Shown piece after piece: positions 13,954-22,167 of a stretch of 64,000 nucleotides of DNA. A model generated the notes under the pieces. The model did not search any database, had not been told where the DNA came from, and saw only the letters and a program-made list of their open reading frames with translations. The stretch comes from Prochlorococcus sp. scB243_495L20. GTDB lineage: Bacteria; Cyanobacteriota; Cyanobacteriia; PCC-6307; Cyanobiaceae. The stretch is from NCBI GenBank assembly GCA_000634215.1, contig JFLX01000091.1, forward strand, positions 1-64,000. Reading direction: 5' to 3'. The stretch's first letter is position 1; every line of letters begins with the position of its first letter. The position numbers and the translations under genes were made by a program.

Positions 13954-14029
13954 GACAAAATTAAGTATAAATTCACTTCAAAAAATCTATAAAGTGTCTT
14001 AAATATGTTCTACAAAGACGGCTTGAGTC

Positions 14030-14173
14030 ATGAAAATCAAAAATACTTCGGTTCTCAATCAGAATAATATTAATTTAAGTCAATTTAAAAATAAGCATAA
14101 ATATCAAATACTTGAGAATTACTGGAAGAAAAGAAAGAAGGAATGTGAAAAAAATCTTTCAAAATTTTGCTAA
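14030..14173 (+). CDS. Small basic hypothetical protein
   Basis: 47 residues, asparagine- and lysine-rich, with KHKYQILENYWKKRKKECEK as a likely helix and two cysteines near the end. It lies 9 bp upstream of the next gene. Function unknown. Confidence 0.4.
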   Translation: MKIKNTSVLNQNNINLSQFKNKHKYQILENYWKKRKKECEKNLSKFC

Positions 14174-14182
14174 TCGATAATT

Positions 14183-14431
14183 ATGAATTTTATATTTTCT
14201 TTCTTTTTAGCATCTGTAATGTGGGTACAAGTTCCACAGTGGGAAGCTGACTGGTCAAAATGTGCTGTAGATGTTCCCGATTCGTCATGTCACTGGTACG
14301 TAGCTGCTCCCGATAATACTTTTGGGGAAGGATTTAATTGGGAAAACGCTCCTTGGTTTGATGCTAATGGATTACAAGATGTAGCTAAGATTGAGAAAGA
14401 ATCTGTAGTAGAAAAACTTCAGAATAACTAA
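14183..14431 (+). CDS. Hypothetical tryptophan-rich exported protein
   Basis: 82 residues. A short hydrophobic N-terminus (MNFIFSFFLASVMWV) precedes VPQWEADWSKCAVDVPDSSCHWYVAAPDN and FGEGFNWENAPWFDANG. Two Cys residues eleven apart may form a disulfide outside the cytoplasm. The conserved-looking W/C pattern suggests a real gene, but no family is recognised. Confidence 0.55.
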   Translation: MNFIFSFFLASVMWVQVPQWEADWSKCAVDVPDSSCHWYVAAPDNTFGEGFNWENAPWFDANGLQDVAKIEKESVVEKLQNN

Positions 14432-14516
14432 AGTTTCTATTTCATCAATTAACTTTTAAAAGTATTTAAATCTAGTTGCTTAGTGGTTAACTTTTGATTA
14501 ATTAAATAATTTTTTT

Positions 14517-14663
14517 ATGCGTTTCAAAGTAAGTCTTAAAAAAAATGGAAAGGAATTTGATGAAGTTGTTATAGCTAATAATAAAAAAGAAGCTATGGAA
14601 GTAGCTTTAAAAAACAATCCAGAAGCTCAAGCATTAAATTCTGATTGGACATTTAAGATTTAA
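14517..14663 (+). CDS. Small hypothetical protein
   Basis: 48 residues: RFKVSLKKNGKEFDEVVIANNKKEAMEVALKNNPEAQALN gives a beta-strand then helix. The stop at 14663 abuts the znuB stop (14664) with no spacer, a tail-to-tail arrangement that supports it as real. Function unknown. Confidence 0.6.
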   Translation: MRFKVSLKKNGKEFDEVVIANNKKEAMEVALKNNPEAQALNSDWTFKI

Positions 14664-15449
14664 TTATTTGCGAAGATTAGGAATTAAAAGGGACGCAACA
14701 CAAATAACGCTAATTGCAGGTCCAGGCGAAAGATTAAAGACTATAGAGAGAATAAATCCAAGAAGTGAGATACATAATCCAAAAAATGAAGACCTCATCA
14801 TTGCAATTCTTAAACTATGAGCCTTATTTAGCCCTAACAAAGTTGGTGTAGAAAGAAGAGCAATTACAAGAATTACTCCCACCGCTGACATTGAACTAAC
14901 AATTACTAATGCCGTCGTAAAACTCAAAACAAGATTTAATAAAGAAACATTTATACCACTAGCGGATGCACCTTCTGGATCCAATCCCACATAAACAACC
15001 TTTTCATATCCAAAAGTCATTAAAAGTATAAATACTAAAAAAGCAATTATTGTTCTAAGTAAATCTCCAAAATTTGCTGTCAATAAATCGCCGAACAATA
15101 CTGCCTCCAAATCAATCCTTATTCCGAGTAAAGGAATAATAAGTACTCCAAACCCAAGCATTCCAGCGAGAATAGTGTTCATAACTGCTTCATAATTTTC
15201 ACTTTTTCTATTAGTTAAACTTTCCGCAATTACTGAGCCCAGAAGACCACTTATAACACCACCAATTGAGGGGTGAATTCCAAGCGCTAATGCGAGAGCA
15301 AGTCCAGGCAACACACAATGAGAGATTAAATTAACTTGTAATAATCTCTTATGAGTGATTAATACAGTTCCCATAGCTGGGCATAAAATCCCGGAGAATA
15401 TAGTTATTATTAATGGAACCAGCCACCAGTTGTTATTAATAAAAGACAT
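14664..15449 (-). CDS. znuB: Zinc ABC transporter permease
   Basis: 261 residues, polytopic, ABC-3 (ZnuB/MntB) family. Eight or so hydrophobic segments are visible with the conserved GTVLITHKRLLQVNLISHCVLPGLALA near the N-terminus and SAVGVILVIALLSTP in the second half. Together with ZnuA and ZnuC it would import Zn(II) across the plasma membrane. The gene lies head-to-head with zur, with 17 bp between the outermost start codons, and is separated from znuC by zur on the opposite strand, so it needs its own promoter overlapping the zur start. Confidence 0.9.
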   Translation of the reverse strand: MSFINNNWWLVPLIITIFSGILCPAMGTVLITHKRLLQVNLISHCVLPGLALALALGIHPSIGGVISGLLGSVIAESLTNRKSENYEAVMNTILAGMLGFGVLIIPLLGIRIDLEAVLFGDLLTANFGDLLRTIIAFLVFILLMTFGYEKVVYVGLDPEGASASGINVSLLNLVLSFTTALVIVSSMSAVGVILVIALLSTPTLLGLNKAHSLRIAMMRSSFFGLCISLLGFILSIVFNLSPGPAISVICVASLLIPNLRK

Positions 15450-15466
15450 TATTCGAATGATTCGGT

Positions 15467-15901
15467 ATGATCAAAAATACGGGACAAAAAAAGATTTCGG
15501 AAACAATGGTAACTAAGTCTGACATTACCAAAAGACAAGAACAACTTCTTGAAGAACTTAATAAATGCGAGGATGAATTGACTGGTCAAGAGTTGCATAG
15601 ACAATTGATAGAAAGCGGAAAGGCTATGGGTCTGACGACTGTTTACAGGAATCTCCAAGTTCTGATAAAGCATGGATTAATACGTTCTAGACATCTACCA
15701 ACTGGAGAGGTTCTTTACACTCCCGTAGATAGAGATATTCATCATTTGACCTGTGTTCAATGTGGTGAGACATCAAAAATGGAAGGATGCCCGGTAAAAG
15801 ATATTCATACACCCAAAACAAATCCAAAGAAATTCCAATTGTTGTTTCATACCCTCGAGTATTTCGGGCTTTGCCAAAACTGTTATCAAGCTCAGAATTG
15901 A
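15467..15901 (+). CDS. zur: Zinc uptake regulator (Fur family)
   Basis: 144 residues from ATG 15467, or 131 from ATG 15506 (MVTKSDITKRQ), which fits Fur-family length better and leaves room for a znuB promoter. A winged helix covers TGQELHRQL ... LTTVYRNLQVLIKHGLI; the regulatory domain has RDIHHLTCVQCGE and LCQNC, giving a structural CxxC/CxxC zinc site plus sensor His residues. The znu context makes Zur much likelier than Fur or PerR. It probably binds the ATGATNATCAT boxes described here. Confidence 0.88.
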   Translation: MIKNTGQKKISETMVTKSDITKRQEQLLEELNKCEDELTGQELHRQLIESGKAMGLTTVYRNLQVLIKHGLIRSRHLPTGEVLYTPVDRDIHHLTCVQCGETSKMEGCPVKDIHTPKTNPKKFQLLFHTLEYFGLCQNCYQAQN

Positions 15902-15914
15902 AAAGGAACATTCT

Positions 15915-16685
15915 CTAATCACAGAAATTATTTTCGTTTATAGAGCTAATGTTTATAGCCTCTAATTGATCTTTTATTTGGTCAGGACTACCAACTGCCA
16001 AAACACTTTTATCAAGAACGATTACTTGATCATAGTTATTTAAAGAATCGCCCCAATCATGGCTACTTACGAGCAAAGAAAGTCCCGCATCCGCAAGTTG
16101 ACGAACAATTTTAAGAAAATCCTCTTTTGCAGGTGGGTCCAAAGCTGCACAAGGTTCATCTAAAAGAAATATTTTTGCCGGGGACATAAGAGTTTTTGCT
16201 AAAAGAGCTCTTTGCTGCTGTCCTCCCGAAAGAGAATCGAGTCTTCTATTAGCCAAACTTGCAATGCCTACTCTCTGCATTGTCGCCTCTAATTCACAGC
16301 ATTTATTAATCCAAGAATTAGGATATGCTAGAAGAGTCTTAATTTGAAATGGGTTATTACTTCTTGATTTTGAATACTTTATTTGACCAAGAGATACCAA
16401 TTTTTCAACTGTAATGGGGAACTTCCAATTCATAGAACTTCTTTGAGGCATAAGTGCCACAAGAGCTCTAGATCTATATAAATTTTCACCGTCAATTTTT
16501 ATTTCGCCTTTATCAGGAGTATTTTGTCCTTGCAAAATTCTCAAAAGAGTTGATTTACCTGCGCCGTTTGGGCCAACTAACGCTGTTAGAGTTCCAGGTT
16601 TAATCTCAACCGATACCTTATTCAAAACTGGCTTACTTTTTTTTGCGTATGCAAAGGTTAAATTTTCAGCGACTAAAGTAGCCAT
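15915..16685 (-). CDS. znuC: Zinc ABC transporter ATP-binding protein
   Basis: 256 residues. Walker A GPNGAGKST (residues ~37-45), Q-loop LMPQRS, signature LSGGQQQR, Walker B IFLLDEPCAALD and an H-loop Ser-Ser-His (LLVSSHDWGD) are all present. It energises the ZnuB permease. It is divergent from znuA across a 135-bp region holding a Zur-type box, so the two are probably co-repressed. Its stop converges on the zur stop with 13 bp between. Confidence 0.92.
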   Translation of the reverse strand: MATLVAENLTFAYAKKSKPVLNKVSVEIKPGTLTALVGPNGAGKSTLLRILQGQNTPDKGEIKIDGENLYRSRALVALMPQRSSMNWKFPITVEKLVSLGQIKYSKSRSNNPFQIKTLLAYPNSWINKCCELEATMQRVGIASLANRRLDSLSGGQQQRALLAKTLMSPAKIFLLDEPCAALDPPAKEDFLKIVRQLADAGLSLLVSSHDWGDSLNNYDQVIVLDKSVLAVGSPDQIKDQLEAINISSINENNFCD

Positions 16686-16781
16686 TAATTAATCTTTTAA
16701 AAAGTCACTTTACAAGCTTACCAATAATACAAGTTGCGTATTATTTTCATAACATTTGATACCTTTACTTGTCAGACATTA

Positions 16782-16803
16782 TGAAAATGATTATCATTTT
16801 TAA
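16782..16803. promoter_or_regulatory. Zur-type operator in znuC/znuA intergenic region
   Basis: TGAAAATGATTATCATTTTTA-like sequence centred at 16792 with the palindromic core ATGATTATCAT (16787-16797). It lies 18 bp upstream of znuA and ~97 bp upstream of znuC, suited to repress both when zinc is plentiful. The core resembles Fur and Zur boxes alike; the context favours Zur. Confidence 0.8.
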
Positions 16804-16820
16804 GTATTTTATTATTTTTC

Positions 16821-18662
16821 ATGTCAATTTTTAAAAGACTTTTAACAAATAAAAAAGGTTCGAGTAAGTCAATTATTAAAAATTCCGTAATCGCTGGAAC
16901 GATTATATTTTCTGGTTTTGGGAATGATGTATTGGCTAAAGGCAAATCATATGTTGCAGTAGAACCACTAGTTTGTGATTTAGTTAAATCAATAGCACTA
17001 CCCTCTGACAAAGTTACATGCTTAGTAGATAGAAAACAGGATGTTCATGACTTAAAGATTAATCCAAGGCAAGCTCAATTATTAAATAGCGCAGACAAAG
17101 TTTTCACTTTAGGTAAAGAAATGACTCCCACTATGAAAAACTGGGAAGACAAGTCAAATACTGTTGTGGTTGGTGTTAGTGCCATCGAAGTGGAGAATCC
17201 TTCTAGCGAAGAGGGAGGAGCTTTTGAATGGGCTGGTCTCTTCGAACTTACAGCAGGAAACTATAAATGGTCATTTGCGAAGGTTGATGGTGAATATGCA
17301 GACCCCGCCATGAAAATGGTCATTCTTGAATCAGACGACATTGAATTATCTGAAGAATTAGCAGAAGAGCTATTGGGATCTGATCAAAATATTGAAAAAA
17401 GCAATAATGGTATTCTTTCTGCAAGTGACAAAGCCTTCGTTTTAAATTTTGATCAAAAGAAAGATATCACGGAATTTAATGTAGAAATCAAAAAAGATGG
17501 TAAGTATGCTTTCTTTACAGAACATATGCCTTTTGAATTTGAAGCAGATGAACACTTCTTCAAAGATCTAGCTAAAAATGATATCGAACCAGTCGCTCAA
17601 GAACCTGATATGGGAGGCCATAGTGAACATGGCGCAGAAGGCTTTGAATGGGCAGGAACTTTTGATCTTAAGGAAGGATCATATAAATGGTCATTTGCAA
17701 AAGTCGATGGTGAATATGCAGATCCTGCTATGAAAATGGTTATCCTCAAATCTGGCGATATTGAAGAATCTGAAGAACTTGCAAAGGAACTTTTAGAATC
17801 CGATGACTCTATCTACAAGGCTGATAATGATGTTTTATTAGCAAGTTCAAAAGCAATATCACTTAATTTTGATCAAGGTAAAGAAAGTACAGTATTTAAT
17901 GTAGAAATTAAAAAAAGTGGTAAATATACATTCTTTACAGAACATATGCCTTTTGAATTTGAGGCAGATGAACACTTTTTTAAAGATGTATCCAACAATG
18001 ATGTAGAGCCTATCGCGCAAGTTCCAGATGAGGGAGATGGGCATCACCACCACCATCATCATGGACATGGAAGTTTAGACCCTCATGTATGGCATGATCC
18101 AGCCAACATTATAAAAATGAGTAAAGTAATCTCAAAAAACTTAAAAAAGGATATCTCTATTTTTAACAGAAAAGATAGAAAATCCATCAATGAAAGAATT
18201 GATTCAACTGAATCTTTACTCAGTGGCCTAAATGAATGGATTCTTGACCAGGTAACAACAATACCTGAGCAAGATAGGGTGCTTGTCTCAAAACATAAAG
18301 CTATGGATTATTATGGTGCTGCATTCGGATTTGAGACTGTTAGTTTACTAGACTTCCTTGGCGATTCATCAAGCTTAAGACCTGAAAACATTAGTTCAAC
18401 TTTGAATATGCTAAAGGAAGAAAATGTTAAGGCAATATTTCCAGAACAAATACCAGCGTCTAAGTTATTAAAAAACTTAAGTAGGCAAAGTTCTGTACCT
18501 TTTGCTTCTAATCAAATATTTGTTGATGGTTTAATGATGAAAGGAAATACTATAAGCGTTGCAGTTCACAACACTTGTACTATTGTTGATTCATTAGGTG
18601 GAAGCTGCGATAAAGAATCTGGCTCCAATCTTGAGTCTGAATGGTACAAACTTTCAGATTAA
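16821..18662 (+). CDS. znuA: Zinc-binding protein ZnuA with two inserted repeat domains
   Basis: 613 residues, about twice the usual ~300. A signal-like helix ends near residue 39. The first ZnuA lobe carries DVHDLKINPRQ (zinc ligand His76). Two near-identical copies of an extra domain follow: residues 135-~260 and 275-~400, exactly 140 apart. Then come a His-rich loop (GDGHHHHHHHGHG, ~405-417), LDPHVWHDP (ligand His422) and VSKHKAMDYYG (ligand His492). The canonical fold is therefore intact, with the insert placed where the His-rich loop normally sits. Each inserted copy contains FEWAG, DPAMKM and FFTEHMPFEFEADEH, rich in Met, His and Glu. The insert's family is not recognised; a homologous copy is in the next gene. 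Confidence 0.92.
   Translation: MSIFKRLLTNKKGSSKSIIKNSVIAGTIIFSGFGNDVLAKGKSYVAVEPLVCDLVKSIALPSDKVTCLVDRKQDVHDLKINPRQAQLLNSADKVFTLGKEMTPTMKNWEDKSNTVVVGVSAIEVENPSSEEGGAFEWAGLFELTAGNYKWSFAKVDGEYADPAMKMVILESDDIELSEELAEELLGSDQNIEKSNNGILSASDKAFVLNFDQKKDITEFNVEIKKDGKYAFFTEHMPFEFEADEHFFKDLAKNDIEPVAQEPDMGGHSEHGAEGFEWAGTFDLKEGSYKWSFAKVDGEYADPAMKMVILKSGDIEESEELAKELLESDDSIYKADNDVLLASSKAISLNFDQGKESTVFNVEIKKSGKYTFFTEHMPFEFEADEHFFKDVSNNDVEPIAQVPDEGDGHHHHHHHGHGSLDPHVWHDPANIIKMSKVISKNLKKDISIFNRKDRKSINERIDSTESLLSGLNEWILDQVTTIPEQDRVLVSKHKAMDYYGAAFGFETVSLLDFLGDSSSLRPENISSTLNMLKEENVKAIFPEQIPASKLLKNLSRQSSVPFASNQIFVDGLMMKGNTISVAVHNTCTIVDSLGGSCDKESGSNLESEWYKLSD
17223..18042 (+). repeat. 420-bp coding tandem repeat inside znuA
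   Basis: Copies begin at 17223 and 17643 (period 420 bp = 140 codons); the second copy ends at about 18042, before the His-rich loop. Core stretches such as YKWSFAKVDGEYADPAMKMV and FFTEHMPFEFEADEHFFKD are identical between copies, whereas the middle helix regions have diverged. This is a duplication retained under constraint. Confidence 0.9.
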
Positions 18663-18739
18663 TTTTTTCTAATAAAAACGGTTTTCATTTCTTATTATTA
18701 CTATTATTAAGCTATTGTTTATTTAGTAAAAATCAGTAA

Positions 18740-20089
18740 ATGAGCATCAAAGATAAAGTTCCCGTAACCATCCTCACTGGATTCTTAGGTTCAGGGAAGA
18801 CTACTTTGCTTAATAGAATTTTAAGTGAAGAGCACGGGAAAAGAATAGCCGTAATTGAGAATGAATACGGTGAAGTAGGTATAGATCAAGGTCTCGTAAT
18901 TAATGCCGATGAAGAAGTATTTGAGATGTCAAACGGGTGCATTTGTTGTACTGTTCGCGGTGATTTAATAAGAGTCCTTGGCAACCTTATGAAAAGAAGA
19001 GATAAGTTTGACTATGTTTTAGTAGAAACTACAGGATTAGCAGATCCAGGTCCAGTTGCTCAGACTTTTTTCATGGATGAAGAGATTAGTTCTGAATTTA
19101 CTCTTGATGGAATTGTGACTTTAGTTGATGCTGCACATATTGATCAACAGCTAGGCAGGAGTGACGAAAGTTCAGAACAAGTGGCATTTGCAGATGTTCT
19201 TGTCCTAAATAAAACTGATTTAGTCTCTGATGATGCATTAGATACCCTTGAATCAAGATTGAGAGATATGAATCGAATGACTCGCATTATTAGAGCCGAG
19301 AATGCCAAAGTACCAATTGAAACAGTCTTAAATCTAAGTGCATTTGATCTCGATCAGATCCTTAAACGCAGACCAACATTTCTTGAACCAGAATATCCTT
19401 TTGAATGGACGGGTGTTTACGATCTAGATCCAGGTAAATATGAATTAATGCTAGAAGAAGGACCCGATCCAGAAATGTCCCTAGTAGCTCTCGTTAACCA
19501 AGGTGAGAGTGAGGAAGAACTTAAAGATGGTGCTGAATCCTCCGTAAGACTTTATGCAGAAAATGCTAATACTTTGGAGCCTGGAAATACTGTCCCATAT
19601 GGAGAACATGTAAATCTAAAATTGGAGAATAAAGGAAATAAATCCTTCATCCTTAACATAGAAAAGCCATCAAAAATAGGTTTGTTTACACAGCACACTG
19701 CTGAAGAATTTAATATGAAAGTCATTAAAAGTGACGAAAATAAAGAGATTCCATTTAATACTGAAAGGTTCTGGCAAGCAGAGCATGAACATGATGATGA
19801 AGTAGGCTCAATTGCTATAGAGCGTTTTGGAGATGTTGACCCAGAAAAACTAAATACTTGGATGGGAAGGCTTCTCTCAGAAAAAGGGGTGGATATATTC
19901 AGAACTAAAGGTTTCATAAGTTACTCAGGCAACCCAAGGCGAATAGTTTTCCAGGGGGTACACATGTTATTTACTGCACAACCTGACAAAGAATGGGGTA
20001 ACGAACCTCGTAGAAATCAACTTGTTTTTATCGGTAGAAATTTAAATGAGAAAGAGATGCAAGAAGGCTTTGATAAATGCCTGATATAG
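18740..20089 (+). CDS. COG0523 (CobW-type) GTPase, predicted zinc chaperone, with inserted domain
   Basis: 449 residues, ~115 longer than typical members. GTPase domain: Walker A GFLGSGKTT (14-22), ENEYGEVG, metal motif GCICC (66-70), ETTGLADPGP, NKTD (157-160). Residues 221-~330 are an insert: FEWTGVYDLDPGKYEL ... GPDPEMSLVAL ... GLFTQHTAEEFNMKVI. It matches, by eye, the domain duplicated in ZnuA. The C-terminal CobW_C domain follows (HEHDDEVGS, RTKGFISYSGNPRRIVFQG). COG0523 proteins use GTP to deliver metals to client enzymes. The zinc locus suggests a Zn chaperone rather than cobalamin synthesis. Confidence 0.9.
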   Translation: MSIKDKVPVTILTGFLGSGKTTLLNRILSEEHGKRIAVIENEYGEVGIDQGLVINADEEVFEMSNGCICCTVRGDLIRVLGNLMKRRDKFDYVLVETTGLADPGPVAQTFFMDEEISSEFTLDGIVTLVDAAHIDQQLGRSDESSEQVAFADVLVLNKTDLVSDDALDTLESRLRDMNRMTRIIRAENAKVPIETVLNLSAFDLDQILKRRPTFLEPEYPFEWTGVYDLDPGKYELMLEEGPDPEMSLVALVNQGESEEELKDGAESSVRLYAENANTLEPGNTVPYGEHVNLKLENKGNKSFILNIEKPSKIGLFTQHTAEEFNMKVIKSDENKEIPFNTERFWQAEHEHDDEVGSIAIERFGDVDPEKLNTWMGRLLSEKGVDIFRTKGFISYSGNPRRIVFQGVHMLFTAQPDKEWGNEPRRNQLVFIGRNLNEKEMQEGFDKCLI

Positions 20090-21150
20090 AACCATTTAGC
20101 CCAAGAGGCATGTTCCATGAAGGATGGACTGCTGAAGTTAGCGATTATGCCATAGCATGTGGCTGGGCTCTTAAAGGGAAACAATTTATTGTTGGCGACG
20201 TTGCGGGTGGTATTTTTGCATTCGAAGGAGATACTGGAAAAATTATTTGGAAAAAAGAAAATACTCACTCTGGTGGTCTACTAGCAATGGCAATTCATCC
20301 AGAGGGTGAAATTTTTGCAACATCAGGTCAGGATGGAAATGTTCAAATTTGTAATTGCCATGAAGGTAAAGTTATTAAAACACTTGATCTTGGCAAAGGT
20401 TGGGTAGAACACCTCAAGTGGTCTAATGACGGTTTATTTCTAGCGATAGCTACCTCAAAAAAAGTATATGTTTTTAATGAAATTGGTGAAGAGAAATGGA
20501 TCTCAGAAGACCATCCAAGCACAGTAAGTGCAATAACATGGGCAAATAAAAATGAGCTAGCAACTGCTTGCTATGGAAGAGTGACATTCTTTGACATAGT
20601 TAATAATAAAACGAACCAAAAACTTGAATGGCAAGGATCATTGGTATCTATGGAATTAAGTCCTGATGGAGATATAGTTGCCTGCGGTAGTCAAGACAAT
20701 TCAGTTCATTTTTGGAGAAGATCAACAGGAATGGATGCTGAAATGACTGGATACCCTGGTAAACCAAGTCATCTTTCTTTTGATGACAGCGGAAAATTAT
20801 TAGCAACAAGTGGCAGTGAAAGAATTACAGTTTGGAGCTTTATAGGAAATGGTCCAGAAGGGACTATGCCAGGAGAGCTATGTCACCATACAGAACCCAT
20901 TTCCAGCCTAGCATTTTCAAATAAAGGTATGCTCGTAGCCTCAGGATCTAGGGATGGTTCTGTTGTCGCAAGTTTCCTAAAGAATGACGGCAATGGAGAC
21001 CCAGTTGGGGCTGCATTCGCTGGAGATTTAGTAGGGGCAATATCCTGGAGACCTGATGATTGTGCACTTGCAGCAGTTAATGCAAAAGGTGTTGTAAATG
21101 TATGGAAATTTAAAGTTCGTACTAACCTTTTTTCTAAGGGATTTAAGTAA
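20077..21150 (+). CDS. WD40-repeat beta-propeller protein
   Basis: 357 residues starting 13 bp inside the cobW-type gene, so translation is probably coupled. About seven blades are visible through recurring units such as LLAMAIHPEGEIFATSGQDG, VEHLKWSNDGLFLAIATS, VSMELSPDGDIVACGSQDN and ISSLAFSNKGMLVASGSRDG. No signal peptide. It has no enzyme signature and is likely a protein-interaction platform. The coupling suggests it works with the GTPase, perhaps as a client or scaffold; this is inference. Confidence 0.85.
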   Translation: MPDIEPFSPRGMFHEGWTAEVSDYAIACGWALKGKQFIVGDVAGGIFAFEGDTGKIIWKKENTHSGGLLAMAIHPEGEIFATSGQDGNVQICNCHEGKVIKTLDLGKGWVEHLKWSNDGLFLAIATSKKVYVFNEIGEEKWISEDHPSTVSAITWANKNELATACYGRVTFFDIVNNKTNQKLEWQGSLVSMELSPDGDIVACGSQDNSVHFWRRSTGMDAEMTGYPGKPSHLSFDDSGKLLATSGSERITVWSFIGNGPEGTMPGELCHHTEPISSLAFSNKGMLVASGSRDGSVVASFLKNDGNGDPVGAAFAGDLVGAISWRPDDCALAAVNAKGVVNVWKFKVRTNLFSKGFK

Positions 21151-21167
21151 AAAATAGAAATTTATAA

Positions 21168-21323
21168 TTACCAATAGTTAGCTTTTAAATGTCTTTCCAT
21201 ACATATGACCTCACAATCATTATCTATTCCTTTTGGGTGAATATCGCAATATGAGAGACATTGAAAATATTCGTCTATAGGATTAGATTGATCAGTTTTA
21301 CTAACTTCTTTCGAATGATTCAT
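21168..21323 (-). CDS. Small four-cysteine protein
   Basis: 51 residues: cysteines at 22, 26, 37 and 41 in FQCLSYCDIHPKG and DNDCEVICMERHLK, a CxxxC...CxxxC arrangement like a helical hairpin with two disulfides or a metal site. No signal peptide. It faces the WD40 gene tail-to-tail with 17 bp between stops. Confidence 0.6.
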   Translation of the reverse strand: MNHSKEVSKTDQSNPIDEYFQCLSYCDIHPKGIDNDCEVICMERHLKANYW

Positions 21324-21477
21324 AAAAAAGTTCCTCAATTATTTAAAATCAAGATAGTCGAATTAAATATCAAAAGAAATAAGCAAAACTTACTAAAAAA
21401 TTCCCAAAAAATTTAACGCAATTATTACCACTCTCGGACATTTTTAATAAAAAAGCAATGCGTATAAAAACGGATTG

Positions 21478-21825
21478 TCTTTAGAGAAATATTTTCCTAA
21501 TTTTATATTGTTGAGTTCTAGGAGGTCTTTCAAAATGATCGATAGCCTGCCTGAAATTTCGGAATAAACCGAACTAATTTAATTAACTGCTCCAATTATT
21601 TTTTATTAATGTCTAAGCTTCCTTCTTCTGCATCGTTTAGGTGCCCTTAAAGAAACAAGCTTAATTCTAGAGTTTTTGCCCCAGTTAAAGACAATTAGTT
21701 AATTTTGGTGAGCATTAGCTTAAAAGAAGTTAGCAACAAGAATCCATGATTTAGGTACGTTATTAACTTCAGTAAAAAATATAAGTAAGAGATAAAAGAG
21801 GGCTTTAAATTAGCCCTCTTTTTTT
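21478..21825 (+). ncRNA. Candidate ~350-nt RNA with mini-ORFs and terminator
   Basis: The stretch 21324-21882 has no long reading frame. A TATAAA box at ~21460-21475, internal hairpins (TTCGG/CCGAA around 21562-21578; AAGCTT/AAGCTT around 21614-21662) and a strong terminator at 21797-21825 suggest one transcript. It holds two mini-ORFs: 21535-21567, preceded by a canonical AGGAGG 9 bases upstream and encoding MIDSLPEISE, and 21609-21650, encoding MSKLPSSASFRCP. It lacks the landmarks I know for RNase P RNA, SRP RNA or a tmRNA tag. 6S RNA is possible but not shown. Confidence 0.45.
21797..21825 (+). terminator. Rho-independent terminator
   Basis: Perfect 8-bp GC-rich stem AGAGGGCT/AGCCCTCT (21797-21804 with 21812-21819), 7-nt loop, then T-run. 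It ends plus-strand transcription before the zinc-ribbon gene at 21883. Confidence 0.9.
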
Positions 21826-21882
21826 AGTAAGATGACTTTCTTCTAGTTTTATAGATAATGATTAAAACAATTAAATTTAAAA

Positions 21883-22167
21883 ATGGTTCGATATTATTGC
21901 CCATATTGCAATCCTAAATATCAATTTCAAAAACAATCCACAAAAGGTAAATTTATTTGTGGCTTGTGCGGAGAGGATCTTGTAAAAAAACCATTTATTA
22001 GATTAAACCAGATAATTGCTTTAGTTGCTGCTTCATCATTACTTTTACCGTTGATATATACTTTTATTTTTTTAATTAAAAATCAATTAAATCCTCCCAA
22101 TAAAAATTATCAAGCAAATAGTAGTTTGATGATAGTTATCAAAGATAAATTTTTAAAATTAAATTAA
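21883..22167 (+). CDS. Zinc-ribbon membrane protein
   Basis: 94 residues. YYCPYCNPKYQFQ and KFICGLCGEDL give a four-Cys zinc ribbon (CxxC...CxxC) at residues ~6-32. A transmembrane helix (IIALVAASSLLLPLIYTFIFLI) and a polar tail follow, so the ribbon is probably cytoplasmic. Zur-type boxes lie downstream, not upstream, so regulation by them is doubtful. Function unknown. Confidence 0.65.
   Translation: MVRYYCPYCNPKYQFQKQSTKGKFICGLCGEDLVKKPFIRLNQIIALVAASSLLLPLIYTFIFLIKNQLNPPNKNYQANSSLMIVIKDKFLKLN

Follow-up and report, generated by a model that had tools for sequence, protein, structure and literature searches.

Locus structure and gene content

We analyzed a 64,000-nucleotide stretch of contig JFLX01000091.1 from Prochlorococcus sp. 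scB243_495L20 (hereafter called the window; the contig set makes up a 1.57 Mb genome, which looks Prochlorococcus-like in its gene content) and found that one inserted domain of about 115 to 130 residues occurs twice in a ZnuA-type zinc-binding protein and once in the adjoining COG0523 GTPase. The domain is real, widespread, and unnamed in the libraries searched, and the proteins that carry it are known kinds of zinc proteins.

Between about 14.6 and 21.2 kb, the gene order is znuB (minus strand), a Fur-family gene (plus), and znuC (minus), followed by znuA, the COG0523 GTPase gene, and a WD40 gene, all on the plus strand (Table 1). Zinc is very scarce where marine picocyanobacteria grow, and the locus looks like the Zur-controlled znu locus of these organisms. 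The inverted repeat at 16784 to 16800 is a putative Zur box by its likeness to the consensus. An Rfam search of positions 14000 to 22000 gave no match.

Table 1. Features of the znu locus in the window
Feature	Position	Strand	Evidence or remark
ZnuB-type permease	14664..15449	-	Open reading frame; homologues near some domain-bearing genes; named from sequence and position
Fur-family regulator, presumably Zur	15467..15901	+	Pfam FUR, E 3.9e-19
ZnuC-type ABC ATPase	15915..16685	-	Open reading frame; homologues near some domain-bearing genes; named from sequence and position
Perfect 8-1-8 inverted repeat AAAATGAT-T-ATCATTTT, Zur-box-like	16784..16800		Between znuC and znuA
ZnuA-type zinc-binding protein, 613 amino acids, two domain copies	16821..18662	+	Pfam PF01297, E 1.2e-40, best stretch residues 384-589
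Domain copy 1 in ZnuA, residues 131-262	17211..17606	+
Domain copy 2 in ZnuA, residues 271-402	17631..18026	+
Poly-His loop HHHHHHHGHG of ZnuA, residues 408-417	18042..18071	+	Directly after copy 2
COG0523 (CobW-type) GTPase, 449 amino acids, one domain copy	18740..20089	+	Pfam cobW, E 2.5e-61; CobW_C, E 1.7e-24
GCICC metal motif of GTPase, from residue 66	18935..18949	+	Invariant in 43 aligned GTPases
Domain copy in GTPase, residues 216-335	19385..19744	+	Between G domain and CobW_C
HEHDD at CobW_C start, after the domain	19784..19798	+	Both His invariant in 43 GTPases
WD40 protein	20077..21150	+	Pfam WD40, E 3.8e-25; ATG at 20077 overlaps GTPase stop at 20087-20089

Both hosts scored far above their Pfam cut-offs, ZnuA with 140.1 bits against PF01297 (cut-off, 29) and the GTPase with 206.9 bits against cobW (cut-off, 20.7) and 85.9 bits against CobW_C (cut-off, 22). 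As the original prediction held, the domain has been added to hosts that keep their own metal motifs: GCICC is in place at GTPase residue 66, and the ZnuA sequence has His76, His422, His492, and Glu542 at the positions where ligands are expected. These three histidines and one acidic residue are presumably the zinc ligands. Likewise, the poly-His loop adjoins the domain in ZnuA and lies outside it, and the two hosts belong to two compartments, ZnuA being exported and the GTPase cytoplasmic, as assigned from sequence and family knowledge. A second ZnuA-family gene in the same genome (locus L001 on contig C12) lies near a contig end and gives the strongest single PF01297 match of the genome.

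Homology of the three copies

The three copies are one homologous domain. ZnuA copies 1 and 2 are 74% identical over 129 positions, and BLASTP of full-length ZnuA against the full-length GTPase gave E values of 2e-8 over copy 2 and 1e-5 over copy 1. Profiles built separately from ZnuA copies only (27 sequences) and GTPase copies only (3 sequences) aligned to each other by hhalign with a probability of 97 and an E value of 8.8e-11, and a set of five plasmid-borne copies matched the two profiles better still (E 4.1e-16 and 1.5e-20, respectively). A search of the genome itself with copy 1, at E values up to 10, returned matches only at the three window copies.

The AlphaFold models agree with this. 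Isolated ZnuA copy 2 was predicted with a mean predicted local distance difference test score (pLDDT) of 90.6 and a predicted template modeling score (pTM) of 0.84, and the whole GTPase with a pLDDT of 89.0 and a pTM of 0.81, the domain lying between the G domain and CobW_C. Both models have the same order of elements, namely, three strands, a helix, further strands, an H-x3-E turn, and the end strands. The two predictions are not fully independent because 37 of the 40 rows in the alignment behind the ZnuA copy 2 model were GTPase copies; the alignment for the whole GTPase consisted of GTPase rows only.

Thus, the claim of the original prediction that one domain is present twice in ZnuA and once in the GTPase was borne out by BLASTP (E 2e-8), by the significant profile alignment between the hosts (hhalign E 8.8e-11), and by a common fold order rather than different folds, and the sequence motifs by which it had recognized the copies are all present. 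It had also described the domain as rich in Met, His, and Glu. This is correct for Glu, which accounts for 13 to 16% of residues in all three copies versus 6.6% in the long open reading frames of the window; Met (2.3 to 2.6% versus 2.0%) and His (1.5 to 1.8% versus 1.5%) are near the level of those reading frames.

Library, structure, and literature searches

As had been expected of the domain, no characterized family was found for it: wherever a scan of whole proteins displayed cut-offs, the inserted part was covered by no Pfam or NCBIfam model above its cut-off. CBM_35 (PF16990) reached 16.3 bits in ZnuA (cut-off, 28; E 0.012) and was absent from the 12 families listed for 40 copies scanned singly. 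The best match of these 40 copies was DUF7055 (PF23157), found in 5 of them with a best E value of 0.0013 in a scan shown without cut-offs, and Cupredoxin_1 (PF13473) was found in 2 of the 40 (best E 0.019); the window copies have no Cys. The domain profile matched no PDB sequence at E values up to 10. Foldseek returned no row at an E value of 0.001 or better (best, 0.068), and the best VIA-align row, a carbohydrate-binding module (CBM) with a Z score of 4.5 and a root mean square deviation (rmsd) of 3.9 over 96 aligned residues, was tied with many unrelated beta-sandwich rows. The structure searches, made with predicted models, thus show at most a common beta-sandwich arrangement. A literature search, in which subscription journals were mostly outside the scope, found no paper on the inserted domain.

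Distribution and hosts

Named genomes were scanned with a single pattern containing P[WF]EW, which gave at least 567 confirmed stretches, and the best 80 by similarity to a copy from Alicyclobacillus were analyzed. The host was a COG0523 GTPase in 80 of these 80 loci, a count that is biased by the one-pattern scan and the ranking against the Alicyclobacillus copy. The loci came from Poribacteria, Acidobacteria, Chloroflexi, Planctomycetota, Verrucomicrobia, Actinomycetota, Myxococcus, a thaumarchaeal metagenome-assembled genome (MAG), and others; a ZnuA-like frame was present in 24 of the 80 stretches, and a Fur-like frame was present in 13. Many domain-bearing loci come from MAGs, so that an individual placement may reflect a binning error.

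In whole-genome samples, the distribution is patchy. The domain was found in 34 of 121 genomes of the family sample (with a profile from the window copies), in 23 of 292 genomes of the phylum sample, and, in samples around six domain-bearing centers with the center counted, in 2 of 349, 19 of 251, 7 of 246, 26 of 288, 2 of 151, and 12 of 199 genomes. Among loci L141 to L234, some of which duplicate one another, 95 domain-bearing frames comprised 82 GTPases, 10 ZnuA proteins, and 3 others (the Alicyclobacillus and Natrinema proteins also found on plasmids, as described below, and a broken GTPase-like fragment). In one locus (L169, genome G398), a partial domain copy with an in-frame stop precedes GTPase-like sequence, apparently a decayed second GTPase. 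The pairing of ZnuA and GTPase pointed out in the original prediction is real and is not special to these two proteins, the domain being widespread in WD40-linked COG0523 GTPases.

Besides, a scan of 72,556 plasmid records with a GTPase-type query found the domain in 11, whose hosts were assigned from annotation and from reading of the sequence. Four haloarchaeal records (Halorubrum, Halorientalis, and two Haloarcula) have ZnuA hosts, and three others (Natrinema, Halomontanus, and Halosolutus) encode stand-alone proteins with His-rich ends, the Natrinema copy adjoining a urease operon. On an Alicyclobacillus plasmid with metal-related genes, the domain lies in a membrane protein (L009, 3779 to 4690) between hydrophobic parts, with His motifs on both sides. 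This protein matched no Pfam or NCBIfam family, and an H-x4-D-H motif near its start is presumably a nickel/cobalt transporter signature. The remaining hosts are annotated GTP-binding proteins in Paraburkholderia and Pantoea agglomerans and one unannotated place in Pantoea soli. None of 50,697 phage records matched, whether the query was the ZnuA pair or one GTPase copy, and one scan of viral contigs gave 15 pattern stretches, none of which was confirmed.

The GTPase-WD40 pair

A WD40 homologue (E value under 1e-25, same strand, within 1.5 kb of the GTPase) lies just downstream of the GTPase in 68 of the best 80 named loci, as it does in the window. Of the 12 loci without it, the sequence stops less than 500 bases from the GTPase in five and continues for more than 3 kb in seven. 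In 60 of 69 pairs, the WD40 start, estimated in the relatives by alignment to the window WD40 protein, falls at -34 to +8 of the GTPase stop, a spacing that suggests coupled translation. A set of verrucomicrobial loci (L199 to L219) encodes long COG0523 GTPases (frames of about 490 to 700 amino acids) with a strongly diverged domain and mostly without a detected WD40 neighbor; the domain copies in L201 to L219 are much diverged and were mostly matched in two pieces.

This arrangement agrees with COG0523 subfamily 5 as described by Haas et al. (2009; PMC2770081), which clusters with WD40 and znuABC genes and has predicted Zur sites. The same paper places a putative Zur site ahead of COG0523 genes of Prochlorococcus marinus and other organisms. 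By its WD40 and znuABC neighbors, the window GTPase is a candidate member of subfamily 5. Unlike the window GTPase, subfamily 5 is described in the passages available with no mention of a further domain separating the G domain from CobW_C. The GTPase-WD40-znuABC link is already in print (PMC2770081).

Putative Zur regulation

Allowing at most 1 core mismatch and requiring at least 6 of 8 arm pairs, we found that a Zur-box-like site precedes znuA in 15 of 27 distinct picocyanobacterial stretches, compared with 34 of 1,350 base-composition shuffles. The inverted repeat of the window and its recurrence fit Zur control of the znu locus. In Synechococcus WH8102, a Zur-repressed znu cluster (synw0968 to synw0973) is described in which uncharacterized synw0972 and synw0973 lie beside znuA (PMC9337993); by gene order, these would fit the GTPase and WD40 genes.

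Origin of the ZnuA copies

A ZnuA copy is present in 26 of the 121 genomes of the family sample, and each of these 26 also has a GTPase copy, which lies within 5 kb in 24; eight genomes have the GTPase copy only. This co-occurrence is partly explained by shared descent. In a verrucomicrobial MAG (L091), genes for the GTPase, WD40 protein, domain-bearing ZnuA, ZnuC, and ZnuB stand in a row. The ZnuA copy of this MAG shares 44% identity with window copy 2, as well as its internal insertion and its extension at the C terminus.

A tree was built from 77 copies. In it, ZnuA copies from picocyanobacteria and Verrucomicrobia fall together with one Rubrobacter GTPase copy and away from the GTPase copies of picocyanobacteria, and the ZnuA copies of haloarchaea cluster with the stand-alone proteins of haloarchaea. 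ZnuA copies thus stand in two places on starred branches, with long branches flagged, and an approximately unbiased test did not reject a single clade of all ZnuA copies (p 0.358). Because the picocyanobacterial ZnuA and GTPase copies do not group together, copying of the domain within the window operon is not favored by this long-branched tree.

In those ZnuA sequences that were inspected, the domain either precedes the His-rich loop or is placed within it. The window ZnuA resembles other PF01297 ZnuA (cluster A-I) proteins in its family match, its His-rich loop, and its presumed ligands and differs from them in about 120 to 270 additional residues just before or within that loop. The ZnuA proteins of the window and of genome G067 carry tandem copies. 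In genome G078 (L021/L149), a znuA-like frame of 840 to 873 amino acids has two domain copies separated by 323 residues, as if much of ZnuA had been duplicated in tandem and in frame. By eye, two Chloroflexi ZnuA proteins encoded beside domain-bearing GTPases (L098, 2401 to 4080, and L111, 6285 to 7841) have a different-looking insert at the same place in the His loop.

Conserved residues and His-rich surroundings

The residue counts cover 178 distinct, nearly complete copies (145 GTPase, 30 ZnuA, and 3 other, two stand-alone copies being included), obtained from 238 aligned rows by removing rows that covered fewer than 95 of 118 positions and identical rows; partial-match copies, to which the majority of the diverged verrucomicrobial copies belong, fall outside this count. 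E6 was kept in 177 copies, W7 in 175, G9 in 177, D27 in 175, H103 in 175, E107 in 174, and M30 in 158, and all seven residues were present in 30 of 30 ZnuA copies. The window equivalents are E136, W137, D161, M164, H235, and E239 in copy 1; E276, W277, D301, M304, H375, and E379 in copy 2; and E222, W223, D243, M246, H319, and E323 in the GTPase. Judged by the predicted strands, the conserved residues probably lie at strand ends and may come together at one end of the sandwich.

The surroundings of the domain are often rich in His. The 40-residue flanks in ZnuA have a mean His content of 20.8%, versus 2.3% in the rest of the host, and those of three other hosts (Alicyclobacillus, Natrinema, and Halomontanus) have 12.6%, versus 3.2%. 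In 43 aligned GTPases, an invariant HxH at the start of CobW_C follows the insert.

Possible function of the domain

A module common to a COG0523 GTPase and a periplasmic zinc-binding protein, with a confident predicted fold and six near-invariant residues, offers a small handle on how these GTPases acquire zinc and pick their clients; for the WD40-linked branch, the literature passages available describe no established function. The reading that we prefer, with a confidence somewhat short of even, is that of a homologous beta-sandwich module added to zinc proteins, and probably nickel/cobalt proteins, whose conserved site holds metal near the site of the host and helps to load it. The conserved E-W, GPD-x-M, and F-T-x-H-x-P-x-E-F elements would form one site at the sandwich end; this site may bind metal or the neighboring His-rich stretch; and the domain would in this way keep metal near, and help to load, the periplasmic site in ZnuA and the CxCC site in the GTPase. 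An intrinsic property such as metal binding is simpler than a common docking partner because the exported and cytoplasmic copies cannot meet the same partner.

A more far-reaching proposal, which we consider doubtful, is that the domain defines a metal-relay family with an E/D/H/E (plus Met) site, in which zinc would pass from the His loop of ZnuA to its import site, the CxCC site of the GTPase would be loaded or read out, and the GTPase and WD40 protein would form an ancient delivery complex. If this were true, a GTPase-WD40 zinc-delivery complex would be directly testable via one shared module.

Several observations weigh against a role in holding metal. The window copies have no Cys and two His each, and a strong zinc site would therefore need Glu or Asp ligands. 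The flanks in the GTPases, the commonest case, are weakly enriched in His (3.6% versus 2.0%), and the E-W-G and GPDP motifs may be structural rather than functional. Coevolution analysis of the 178 copies (effective number, 92) yielded top couplings that were neighbors or gap related and did not recover the hairpins. Besides, 12 of the 27 znuA upstream stretches, one of them only 120 bases long, had no Zur-like repeat, and docking would account equally for the conserved gene neighborhood of the GTPase copy.

Such a docking module, with the GTPase copy binding the WD40 propeller or a client enzyme and the ZnuA copy binding another partner (an outer-membrane receptor, a periplasmic chaperone, or a second ZnuA), would use the shared residues as a common binding edge. 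We regard it as possible and rather unlikely. It gains from the WD40 gene downstream in 68 of 80 loci, from the -34 to +8 spacing in 60 of 69 pairs, and from the fact that the domain replaces nothing in its host. Yet no single partner could serve the cytoplasmic GTPase as well as ZnuA and the stand-alone proteins, which look exported, and all of them keep the same residues. In three haloarchaeal ZnuA loci, moreover, the annotated flanks of 3 to 4 kb include no WD40 gene, the plasmid gene tables being incomplete. Metal binding and docking of the GTPase copy could also both be true.

The position of the domain between two host parts in both the GTPase and ZnuA, its tandem copies in ZnuA of the window and G067, and the many conserved positions that are typical structural residues (W, G, P, and F) would also suit a spacer or hinge that sets the length and stiffness of a linker, the conserved residues belonging to the core or turns. 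This is improbable in our view: E6, D27, H103, and E107 are kept as well in stand-alone proteins, which have nothing to space (two such copies counted). It is far less probable still that the domain is a CBM-like beta-sandwich that tethers exported forms to carbohydrates or surfaces. That idea draws on weak matches only, CBM_35 at an E value of 0.012 below its cut-off and the best VIA-align row at a Z score of 4.5, with which many unrelated beta-sandwich rows tie, and the commonest host is a GTPase of cytoplasmic type. Whichever function applies, a named profile for the domain would improve the annotation of GTPases, ZnuA, and stand-alone proteins in bacteria and archaea.

Relation to known proteins

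AdcA-type zinc-binding proteins also have an added domain, which is C-terminal and ZinT-like. The window ZnuA resembles them in being a zinc-binding protein with an added domain; its NCBIfam AdcA row was below the cut-off, and no ZinT-named model was among the 12 families listed for the 40 domain copies. For the GTPase model, the top structural rows were Escherichia coli YjiA (1nij and 4ixm; 36 to 37% identity, Z scores of 17.8 to 18.8, 263 to 271 aligned residues). YjiA has 317 to 318 residues versus 449 in the window GTPase and thus has no room for the inserted domain, and a different placement of the two halves in the model is suggested by the overall rmsd of about 19 for the full alignment.

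The periplasmic zinc chaperone AztD is, like the window WD40 protein, a propeller protein encoded near ZnuA-type, Fur, and CobW genes (PMC6689063). Unlike AztD, the window WD40 protein shows no obvious signal peptide on visual inspection, and the inserted domain differs from a propeller in kind. The diatom proteins ZCRP-A and ZCRP-B were dropped as candidate relatives, ZCRP-B being described as NikA-like in the available part of PMC9010474. Cyanobacterial ZepA is a different exoprotein, to which no link was found in the passages of PMC10957091, and the extra part described for green-alga CobW proteins in those of PMC13368412 and PMC12891040 is a C-terminal WW domain.

The GTPase model also aligned with Tetrahymena Shulin (6zyx) with a Z score of 16.7 and an rmsd of 4.3 over 289 residues, and Pfam DAAF9_2 matched the window GTPase at an E value of 0.0033 (17.5 bits, below the cut-off of 27.5). 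Shulin, a dynein-arm protein, thus seems to include a GTPase region of the CobW type.

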